Assembly (NCBI RefSeq): GCF_026155325.1
Contig: NZ_JAPFPW010000003.1
Span: 124,001 to 188,000 of the forward strand
Reading direction: 5' to 3'
DNA: 64,000 nt
Source of the DNA: Desulfobotulus pelophilus
GTDB taxonomy: Bacteria > Desulfobacterota > Desulfobacteria > Desulfobacterales > ASO4-4
The position numbers were made by a program, and so were the translations under genes. Under the pieces are notes generated by a model. The model searched no databases. It worked only from the letters and a program-made list of their open reading frames with translations, and was not told the DNA's origin. Below are positions 54,843-57,386 of this stretch, piece after piece. Position 1 is the stretch's first letter. Each line of letters opens with the position of its first letter.

Positions 54843-55268
54843 ATGCGTAAGGGACGTATTTTGGAACAGGATGCGGATATCCGCAAGGCTCTGCAGGAAA
54901 CAAAGAGCATAGCCGTACTGGGTATGAGCCCCAGGGCGGAGAGGGATTCCAATAAAGTAGGGCGGTATCTTCTGGATGCGGGGTATGAAGTGATTCCCGT
55001 GAACCCGGCCGGGGGTGAAATACTGGGGTTGGCCGTTGAGGAAACAATCGAGGACCTTGTAAAGGGATCGGTGGATATCCTGGACATATTCCGGAAGTCA
55101 GAAGATGTGGCAGGGCATGTGGACGCGGCCATTGCCCTGCAGCCCAGAGTAGTCTGGATGCAGCTGGGGGTTGAGAACGGGGAGGCTGCGGCAAGGCTTA
55201 CCGAGGCCGGTATGGATGTGATTATGGATAAATGTATTAAGGTGGAACATGCCAGACTCTGTAGATGA
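54843..55268 (+). CDS. CoA-binding domain protein
   Basis: A 141-residue Rossmann-type protein of the CoA_binding family (YccU-like). The nucleotide/CoA-binding segment is SIAVLGMSPRAERDSNKVGRYLLDAGYEVIPVNP, followed by VDILDIFRKSED, PRVVWMQLGVEN and a conserved C-terminal DKCIKVEH. The ATG follows AAAGGAGAAAAACC. The Cys-rich gene overlaps its 3' end by 20 nt, so the two are co-translated. The physiological role of this family is not settled. Confidence 0.88.
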   Translation: MRKGRILEQDADIRKALQETKSIAVLGMSPRAERDSNKVGRYLLDAGYEVIPVNPAGGEILGLAVEETIEDLVKGSVDILDIFRKSEDVAGHVDAAIALQPRVVWMQLGVENGEAAARLTEAGMDVIMDKCIKVEHARLCR

Positions 55269-55491
55269 AAGAAAGCCGGGCCAGGGTACCGGATACCGGG
55301 AACGTCGTAAAAAGGCACGCATGGAACCCTGCCACTGGTGTCGTGCAACAGCTCCTTTCGTGTGGCATTGCCGCTGTGGCTTGCGGATCTGCCAGACCTG
55401 TATGGACGAGAATTTCTGGGGGCTTTCCTGTAACGGTATCACCTGGGTCTGCCCGGATTGCGGAGATCAGAATGGTTTCGGCAATCAGTAG
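55249..55491 (+). CDS. Small Cys-rich, zinc-ribbon-like protein
   Basis: An 80-residue protein with four closely spaced Cys pairs: CHWC, CRCGLRICQTC, and CPDCGDQ, plus SC. This looks like a small zinc-binding protein. The N-terminal 25 residues are basic. It is translationally coupled to the CoA-binding gene (AAGGTGG precedes its ATG inside that gene), so a functional link is likely. I do not recognise the family. Confidence 0.65.
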   Translation: MPDSVDERKPGQGTGYRERRKKARMEPCHWCRATAPFVWHCRCGLRICQTCMDENFWGLSCNGITWVCPDCGDQNGFGNQ

Positions 55492-55497
55492 GATGTC

Positions 55498-56124
55498 TCA
55501 GGGAGAAAGAAAATCATGCAGCCTGTCAAGGGTCTGAATGTGGAGTTCGGCTCCCAGATCTTCTGCACCATAGCCGATAAAATGGCAGCCTGCTTCCGAA
55601 GCGGCCCGGGCATCCAGAGGTGAGTCTCCGATGTAAAGAAGGTTCTCAGGAGAAAGGCCGAAGTGCTTTACAAGGGCGGTGAGCATGTCCGGATGGGGTT
55701 TGGGCCTGACCACATCCATGGATGTGATCAGTTTGTCAAAATACTTCGTAAGATCAAAATAATCGAGCAGAGGCCGTAGGGTGTTGGAGCGGTTGGTGGC
55801 CACGGCGGTTCTGTAGTGTGGCCGAAGGTTTTTCAGCAGTTTTCTCAGGTGGGGCTCCTCAATCATGAGGGGGAAGAGGTCCGGATAGTGAAAATGCTGC
55901 AGATTTTCTTTCACCTGATCCAGAGGAACCCGTCCCTCAAAAAGGTGCCGGATAGCTTCGGACGCGGTGTGCATGTGGACATGGTGAAAGTCCGCATCTG
56001 TCATGGGATCCAGGCCGAAGGCCTGAAGCTGGGTGTTATAATAGGTTCGGTTGGCTTCCGTGGAGTTGATCATCACTCCGTCACAGTCAAAGGCAACGGC
56101 CTGGATATTTCTGAACTGTATCAT
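55498..56124 (-). CDS. HAD-family phosphatase
   Basis: A 208-residue haloacid dehalogenase-type phosphatase. Motif I is VAFDCDGVMINS (Asp about residue 13), motif II is in AVATNRS, motif III Lys is in VVRPKPHPDM, and motif IV is YIGDSPLDARAA. The helical cap lies after motif I. It resembles phosphoglycolate phosphatase-type enzymes, but the substrate is unknown. The ATG at 56124 lies 10 nt past the end of the DUF1573 gene on the same strand, so the two probably form an operon. Confidence 0.88.
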   Translation of the reverse strand: MIQFRNIQAVAFDCDGVMINSTEANRTYYNTQLQAFGLDPMTDADFHHVHMHTASEAIRHLFEGRVPLDQVKENLQHFHYPDLFPLMIEEPHLRKLLKNLRPHYRTAVATNRSNTLRPLLDYFDLTKYFDKLITSMDVVRPKPHPDMLTALVKHFGLSPENLLYIGDSPLDARAASEAGCHFIGYGAEDLGAELHIQTLDRLHDFLSP

Positions 56125-56134
56125 GGTTTTCCTG

Positions 56135-56842
56135 TCAGGGCTGTTTTTCGGATGCAGGGCGGATGTCTCCCAGTACCCGGATTCTGAGTTCTTCCCGTAT
56201 GGGGCTGTCAATCGTAAGCACCAGGGTGTCGAAATACCTGCCCGCTTCTTTTCGGGTATTGTGCGTCTGAATGAGATAACCGGGACGGCCATCTTTCAAA
56301 GGTGTAATGGAGAATTGAAAATCCTCACCTCTGAGAGCACGGATACTCTTTACCGTAAAGGGGTATTCTGTAAAGGGTGTCAGTGTAAGGTCACGGGAGA
56401 TGGTTGCGTCGGGGCTGCCCTGAAGTCGGATAAGGGGTGGTTCCATCTTTGCAAAAGACTGGATGAATCCTCGGATTTCAAGGCGAATTTCTTTTTGGCC
56501 CGGAACATTGGTCTGAACGGGTATGATCTGTACAAGGGTTCTGTCCGCATAGCCTAGCGTTTGTATACGGACATCAAGGTGTCCCTCTCCGCCGGGAGGG
56601 ATGCGCCCCGTAAAAGAGGCAACGGAGCAGCCTCAGCCGGGGTCGACCCGAAGTATGCGCAGTTCACTGCTGCCGGTATTCTTCAGGAGGAATCTGTGCT
56701 GGATGGTGCTGCCCTCGGGAAGCGTTTCAAAGGTATGGCTTGCCTGAGGAACATAAAGCACGGGATTGGCATAAAGAAAGAGCGGGGCAAACAGCAGGAA
56801 GATGGCAAAGCCTGTTGTCCGAATCTGGAATCTGGTTATCAA
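56135..56842 (-). CDS. DUF1573 protein with in-frame UGA; candidate selenoprotein
   Basis: A 235-residue exported protein if UGA at 56635-56633 is read through. A TTG start at 56842 follows GAGGAGG (56851-56857) and opens a Sec signal peptide ending LFLYA-NP. The family-like domain then reads PVLYVPQASHTFETL, LKNTGSSELRILRVDPG, UGA, GCSVASFTGRIPPGGEG, and later IIPVQTNVPG. DUF1573 proteins normally have Cys-Gly-Cys here, so UGA replaces the first Cys exactly. There is no other stop between 56842 and 56135. A nonsense mutation from a Cys codon is the alternative. Hairpins downstream of UGA and nearby yedF favour selenocysteine. Function of the family is unknown. Confidence 0.75.
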
Positions 56843-56951
56843 GATGGATGCCTCCTCTTCCATGTGGGGTCTTTGCATAAAATCTGCGTATCTTAGTGAA
56901 GGGATGTCTGGAATGTCAAGAAAACGCAATGCATGGAGGGGGTATCACAGG

Positions 56952-57386
56952 ATGGGAAGGGAGCTTTCCGTGCCCTTGTTCTGGTTTCTTATGGCTATAC
57001 TGATTTTAATGCCCAGCCTTTCCTGTACGCAGCCATCGGAGGATTTCTGGATTTCCCAGCAATCCCTGCGAAATCTGATGGAAGCGGAGATGCCCGGGGT
57101 TCTGCTCATGGATGTGCGGGAGGTGGCGGAGTTCCGGCGGGCTCATATACCGGGTTCGGTGAACATTCCTTTGTCCTATCTTGAAACACATGCAGGCCAT
57201 GTGGGAAAGTTGCTGAAAGCCCGCGAAGATATGGAGACCATGGTTCTCATATGCAATACCCACAACCGGAGCAGGCGGGCGAGGGAGATTTTGCAAAAAG
57301 AGGGAATCGGATGGAGAATATGGGTTCTTGAAATGGGGGTGACAGGCTATTTTACCGGGAAGAAGGCCTCTGCAGACCTGTTGTGA
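56952..57386 (+). CDS. Rhodanese-domain lipoprotein
   Basis: A 144-residue exported protein. The signal peptide ends SLSC (lipobox, Cys about 25). The rhodanese domain begins at about residue 45 with VLLMDVREVAEFRRAHIPGSVNIPL, and the active-site Cys is in LICNTHNRSRRA (about residue 103). It could carry persulfide sulfur in the periplasm. The ATG at 56952 is chosen because it gives a signal peptide. It is divergent from the DUF1573 gene, about 110 nt apart, and ends in a strong terminator. Confidence 0.88.
   Translation: MGRELSVPLFWFLMAILILMPSLSCTQPSEDFWISQQSLRNLMEAEMPGVLLMDVREVAEFRRAHIPGSVNIPLSYLETHAGHVGKLLKAREDMETMVLICNTHNRSRRAREILQKEGIGWRIWVLEMGVTGYFTGKKASADLL

Follow-up and report, generated by a model that had tools for sequence, protein, structure and literature searches.

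An OS_HP2/DUF1573 gene with a very probable selenocysteine codon in Desulfobotulus pelophilus and its candidate downstream SECIS hairpin

Selenoproteins of the OS_HP2 family, which carry the DUF1573 domain, already have a place in published tables. A table row in PMC2398784 (2008) gives OS_HP2 with pfam07610 and the motif UxC, and its columns of 2, 2 and 354 are taken by us as Sec sequences and, for the last (354), Cys homologues. The selenoprotein tables of PMC9312934 (2022) and PMC13188914 (2026) each include DUF1573 with the motif UGC, both citing Zhang and Gladyshev 2007 for the entry, and NCBIfam holds the model NF041425, named 'OS_HP2 family (seleno)protein'. The literature passages retrieved on OS_HP2/DUF1573 contained nothing on function, on a link with HAD proteins, on OmpA fusions or on the occurrence of TGA copies in 51 of 58 sampled genomes. 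The gene described here lies in a 64,000-nucleotide stretch of D. pelophilus DNA (the window, meaning the whole stretch analysed), and its product shares the domain (PF07610), the UGC motif and the Sec position of the OS_HP2/DUF1573 selenoproteins of NF041425. It sits at the edge of that model, scoring 99.7 bits as a 236-residue reading and 100.3 bits as a 208-residue cut against a cut-off of 100, and all 68 aligned members matched the model at E <= 0.001. The original prediction had presented the gene as a candidate new selenoprotein and knew of no established DUF1573 selenoprotein family, whereas these tables and the NCBIfam model show that there is one; the idea of a new selenoprotein family was rejected, and the window gene is a sound new example of a known one.

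The gene and its immediate surroundings comprise the following features:

56135..56842, minus strand: selenoprotein gene of the OS_HP2/DUF1573 kind, running from a TTG start to a TGA stop and encoding 235 residues, Sec70 among them (from the frame, Pfam and NCBIfam)

56633..56635, minus strand: UGA codon taken to specify selenocysteine (Sec70), the U of the UGC motif (from the frame and codon comparison in homologues)

56465..56746, minus strand: DUF1573 domain (residues 33-126), its fold predicted to be Ig-like (ASH) (from Pfam and the fold model)

55498..56121, minus strand: gene for a HAD-family hydrolase, which begins 13 bases past the stop codon of the selenoprotein gene (from Pfam)

As had been proposed from the sequence, the minus-strand frame from 56842 to 56135 is interrupted only by the TGA at 56635-56633 (residue 70), the terminal TGA lying at 56137-56135. 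The two halves either side of it belong to a single DUF1573 domain, since one PF07610 match spans the TGA (residues 33-126, E 2.7e-13, 50.2 bits against a cut-off of 26.1); a weaker Pfam match to a HYDIN-type Ig domain was co-located with it (E 6.2e-6). The motif in the window protein is GUGCS and the UGA therefore occupies the first Cys of Cys-Gly-Cys, a placement also put forward in the original prediction and in agreement with the TGC or TGT found at this codon in 14 of the 68 loci compared. The TTG at 56842 is a plausible start codon, with an AGGAGG judged by eye to end 8 bases 5' of it, and the N-terminal part of the protein, also by eye, contains a hydrophobic, signal-like stretch. In a crude codon-usage scan of the UGAs in the window, the Sec70 TGA was absent from the best 20 of 178, and gene ends ranked high.

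Homologues were sought without regard to TGA and found in 54 of 58 genomes, a set made up of the genome that holds the window and those of relatives; 67 loci were fetched and compared together with the window gene, one further match (G006:C48, E 1.2e-4, 1 TGA) being left out of the counts. The comparison of UGA and Cys at this position, which had been suggested as a check, gave TGA in 54 loci, TGC in 12 and TGT in 2. With TGA at the same codon in 54/68 loci and TGC or TGT in the rest, the placement of the UGA is beyond chance. By genome (n=58), a TGA copy was present in 51, a Cys copy only in 3 and no match in 4, and Sec and Cys copies occurred side by side in 10. The motif was UGC in 53 of the 54 TGA copies and CGC in 12 of the 14 Cys copies, and the stretch after the Sec/Cys codon measured 156-182 residues in 65/68 loci. 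The one remaining TGA copy (L118, genome G051) keeps the UGA and reads U-A-S, with no Gly-Cys partner; it is either a Sec protein lacking the resolving Cys or an assembly fault.

In the wider phylum, 167 of 395 genomes matched the DUF1573 profile. Twenty loci from outside the order (11 family codes) all had U at the motif (20/20), and because these loci were chosen for an internal TGA they are evidence of spread, not of frequency. Several of the 20 carry extra DUF1573-like stretches and some are lipoprotein-like, as judged by eye. Apparent two-Sec proteins among the matches listed (G237, G260, G344 and G438) were rejected, the second TGA being the terminal stop in each.

A quick tree was built from 68 rows. 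The best tree required 8 changes of the Sec/Cys label, compared with a mean of 12.9 when the label was shuffled; starred branches force 2 such changes, and 45 of the 65 inner branches are poorly supported. Two copies from one genome (G036), L067 with Sec and L094 with Cys, are sisters (98, starred), an arrangement that points to Sec/Cys exchange after duplication. The Cys copy L094 folds better than its own synonymous shuffles (z -2.2), as if a relic hairpin persists.

The fold model, built with 4 aligned sequences, had a mean pLDDT of 65.5 and was confident only for about residues 24-128. Residue 70 lies in a turn before the strand at 72-77, and Sec70 and Cys72 could therefore adjoin side by side in the modelled structure. 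An OmpA domain precedes DUF1573-Sec in the same frame in three of four loci tested (L069, L073 and L092, over the Pfam cut-off); in the fourth (L115) it fell just under, at 26.2 against 27.2 bits.

The HAD hydrolase gene and the selenoprotein gene probably belong to the same operon. In the fetched stretches, a same-strand HAD hydrolase gene followed 46/54 TGA genes against 4/14 Cys genes, the gap after the TGA gene being mostly <60 bases and at most 606; the 8 TGA loci with no HAD gene include L058, where only 52 bases of contig are left. A PriA-like gene (by eye) lies upstream in 28/68 loci, and a PolA-like gene (by the window's Pfam matches) occurs nearby in 11; we read these links as synteny and the HAD link as tighter. 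Two further genes of the window lie close by. An 80-residue Cys-rich protein encoded at 55249-55491 on the plus strand, with no Pfam or NCBIfam match, has relatives near the DUF1573 gene in 12/68 loci, the window included. A rhodanese-domain protein with a lipoprotein-like stretch is encoded at 56802-57386 on the plus strand, opposite the selenoprotein gene, whose 5' end it overlaps; none of the remaining 87 loci matched it.

Among the Planctomycetota, the Cys-form DUF1573 genes L009 and L010 each have a PQQ-propeller-like gene (by eye) upstream, and the gene immediately after each carries an EPCGC motif. Pfam found a cytochrome c554 domain in the gene after L009's DUF1573, and the gene after L010's resembles it; a UshA-like identity for this neighbour was rejected, as Pfam gave cytochrome domains only. 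Relatives of the neighbour or of the propeller-like gene were not found at E <= 1e-3 in 88 loci with flanks of about 3-4 kb or less, and a SoxYZ/SoxB-like idea drawn from the neighbour gene was dropped for want of such relatives near DUF1573.

For the chemistry of the motif, we put at roughly even the chance that Sec70 and Cys72, at the start of the predicted β-strand, would form a reversible selenenylsulfide serving thiol/disulfide redox. The main alternative accepts a real selenoprotein and makes Sec70-Cys72 a soft-metal site, for copper, mercury or similar; we regard it as rather unlikely. Thiolate/selenolate pairs bind soft metals, the first motif position is Sec or Cys in 68/68 loci and His49 (H22 of the alignment) is nearly invariant, all of which would suit a metal site. 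Against this stand the repeated Sec/Cys exchange on the tree, which is a feature of known redox selenoproteins, and the lack of any metal-resistance gene among the neighbour clusters that could be named, these being a minority of all clusters. The candidate that we favour is a redox role for an exported selenol carried by an Ig-like domain.

A much weaker explanation is that a Cys-form gene was recently broken by a nonsense mutation, which the existence of Cys forms in 14/68 loci would allow. Both congeners (L054 and L055, 59% and 63% identical to the window protein) also have TGA at the Sec70 codon, and NG86 dN/dS beyond the TGA was 0.36/1.58 for the window against L054, 0.30/1.44 against L055 and 0.14/0.45 between L054 and L055; by these values the part of the protein past the TGA is under purifying selection. 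The original prediction had held that close relatives all with Cys, and decaying sequence in this strain alone, would speak for such a mutation, and the congeners with TGA and the selection persisting past it are the opposite pattern. As TGA moreover predominates at this codon in the order and is also seen in further families of the phylum, we consider a recent mutation extremely improbable, and a pseudogene reading was rejected on the conservation of the TGA and the selection beyond it.

The genome search gave matches over the cut-offs for tRNA-Sec (selC, 75.4 bits), SelB (379), SelA (621) and SelD (376), the SelD gene itself containing one in-frame TGA. The original prediction had taken absence of selA, selB, selC and selD as a sign of a nonsense mutation, and all four are present. 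In 14 control genomes at the same cut-offs, tRNA-Sec passed in 5, SelB in 2, SelA in 1 and SelD in 2. SelA was found in 57 of the 58 genomes of the relatives' set, the exception (G032) being 65% complete and having a TGA copy; across the phylum 359/395 genomes had a SelA match, 355 of them over the cut-off. At least five phylum genomes have a TGA hit and no SelA match (G224 and G439 counted by a TGA at any place), and in those five tRNA-Sec was over the cut-off in 5/5 and SelB in 4/5. One genome, G095 (loci L141, L143 and L147; a single contig, 99% complete), combines a UGA-containing DUF1573 gene with SelB and tRNA-Sec; it gave four RF01852 matches over the cut-off and no SelA match, and a search for archaeal-type SepSecS returned a sub-threshold match only. 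Decoding of the UGA as a standard amino acid, through an altered code or a suppressor, would also fit the frame, which is equally open under any reading of UGA. It can be set aside with near certainty, as UGA terminates both the selenoprotein gene and the following HAD gene, selA, selB, selC and selD are present, and Cys is the sole alternative at this position across 68 loci.

Two hairpins just 3' of the codon were examined as the presumed bacterial SECIS:

56603..56622, minus strand: hairpin 1, columns 14-33 with numbering that begins at the U of UGA, its register taken from relatives

56582..56601, minus strand: hairpin 2, columns 35-54, lying across the conserved codons for IPPGGEG, the weaker case

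A gapless alignment of 51 TGA genes was used (A1; L090 and L097, with a 3-base insertion, and L118, shifted, were left out), together with 13 Cys genes (A2, L120 left out) and an alignment from the 20 phylum loci (A5, L125, L132 and L134-L137 left out). In the 51 TGA genes the two hairpins (columns 14-20/27-33 and 35-42/46-54) had 80.9% of cells paired and 11 of the 15 pairs showed changes on both sides; the paired share and the two-sided changes were each reached by 0/500 shuffles, and the count of pair types by 2/500. The same pairs were 49.7% filled in the 13 Cys genes, against 47.4% in shuffles (55/500 as high; covariation score 22/500). RNA was separated from coding constraint by folding, for each gene, the 51 bases that follow the codon and comparing the result with 200 synonymous shuffles. 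The mean z was -1.68 in 54 TGA genes and +0.18 in 14 Cys genes, with z below 0 (folding better than the mean shuffle) in 52/54 versus 6/14, and the difference had a Mann-Whitney p of 2e-5, which is optimistic because the sequences are related.

Covariation in hairpin 1 recurred among 13 distinct sequences taken from other families (covariation score 0/500 shuffles), where the pair types of this hairpin were not above shuffles (397/500) and where sliding it by +1 column was nearly as good, so that the register varies. Hairpin 2 showed no covariation in the sequences of other families, and hairpin 1 is the better SECIS candidate of the two on this comparison. The lowest-energy fold of the window's own RNA takes a competing stem in place of hairpin 1, and RNAalifold alone recovered only the cores of both hairpins (6 pairs, -1.33 kcal/mol). 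A covariance model of the region matched 20/20 phylum TGA loci (18.3-67.4 bits) and 3 held-out TGA loci; it also matched 9/14 Cys loci with overlapping scores (17.1-49.9 bits) and 2/3 loci of another set, and is therefore not specific, much of its signal being coding conservation. Rfam gave no match up to E 1 in 1201 bases around the gene. The comparative evidence, covariation and folding together, agrees with a SECIS hairpin just 3' of the UGA.

Conservation of the codon, selection beyond it, the signal of RNA structure and a genome equipped with selA, selB, selC and selD together lend strong support to the proposal that this UGA is read as selenocysteine, and we consider that the UGA at residue 70 almost certainly inserts Sec. 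SelB with Sec-tRNA(Sec) would decode it, probably assisted by the RNA hairpin just downstream. That this is a real OS_HP2/DUF1573 selenoprotein with Sec70 decoded with the help of that hairpin, whatever its exact chemistry, is highly likely from the sequence comparisons. The product would have a signal-like N-terminus, one Ig-like domain and then a C-terminal half, perhaps another Ig-like domain, and it would probably be periplasmic. More speculatively, and with considerable doubt, Sec-DUF1573 might be a near-universal periplasmic selenol device throughout the order, anchored at the cell wall or membrane (as OmpA fusions and lipoprotein-like forms), co-transcribed with the HAD gene and subject to repeated Sec/Cys exchange. 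Such a device would represent a class of redox selenoproteins whose scaffold is Ig-like and not the thioredoxin fold. With its TGA copy in 51/58 sampled genomes of the order and a predicted fold seldom tied to redox chemistry, the selenoprotein makes a good target for biochemistry, and the genomes holding both Sec and Cys copies permit direct comparison.

The Cys-form DUF1573 proteins of Planctomycetota (L009 and L010) and Chryseobacterium (L011) have CGC where the window protein has UGC, and L009 and L010, at 345 and 343 residues, are longer than it. The best PDB matches of the fold model (Foldseek) were ASH/PapD-like Ig domains, including HYDIN, CEP192, OCRL1 and axoneme proteins, and the Porphyromonas gingivalis structure 2qsv, with identities of 10-18% in the rows named; the ASH/PapD-like domains have the fold predicted for about residues 24-128 of the window protein. 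PDB entry 2qsv also matched the family by sequence profile (E 0.00023), as the only solved relative at E <= 0.01, and a literature search for 2QSV found no paper; it lacks Cys where the window protein carries the motif. The thioredoxin fold of TlpA proteins differs from the Ig-like fold predicted for the window protein. The UGC motif itself is shared between the window protein and the UGC-containing TlpA disulfide reductase family selenoproteins, as given in a table row of PMC13188914.
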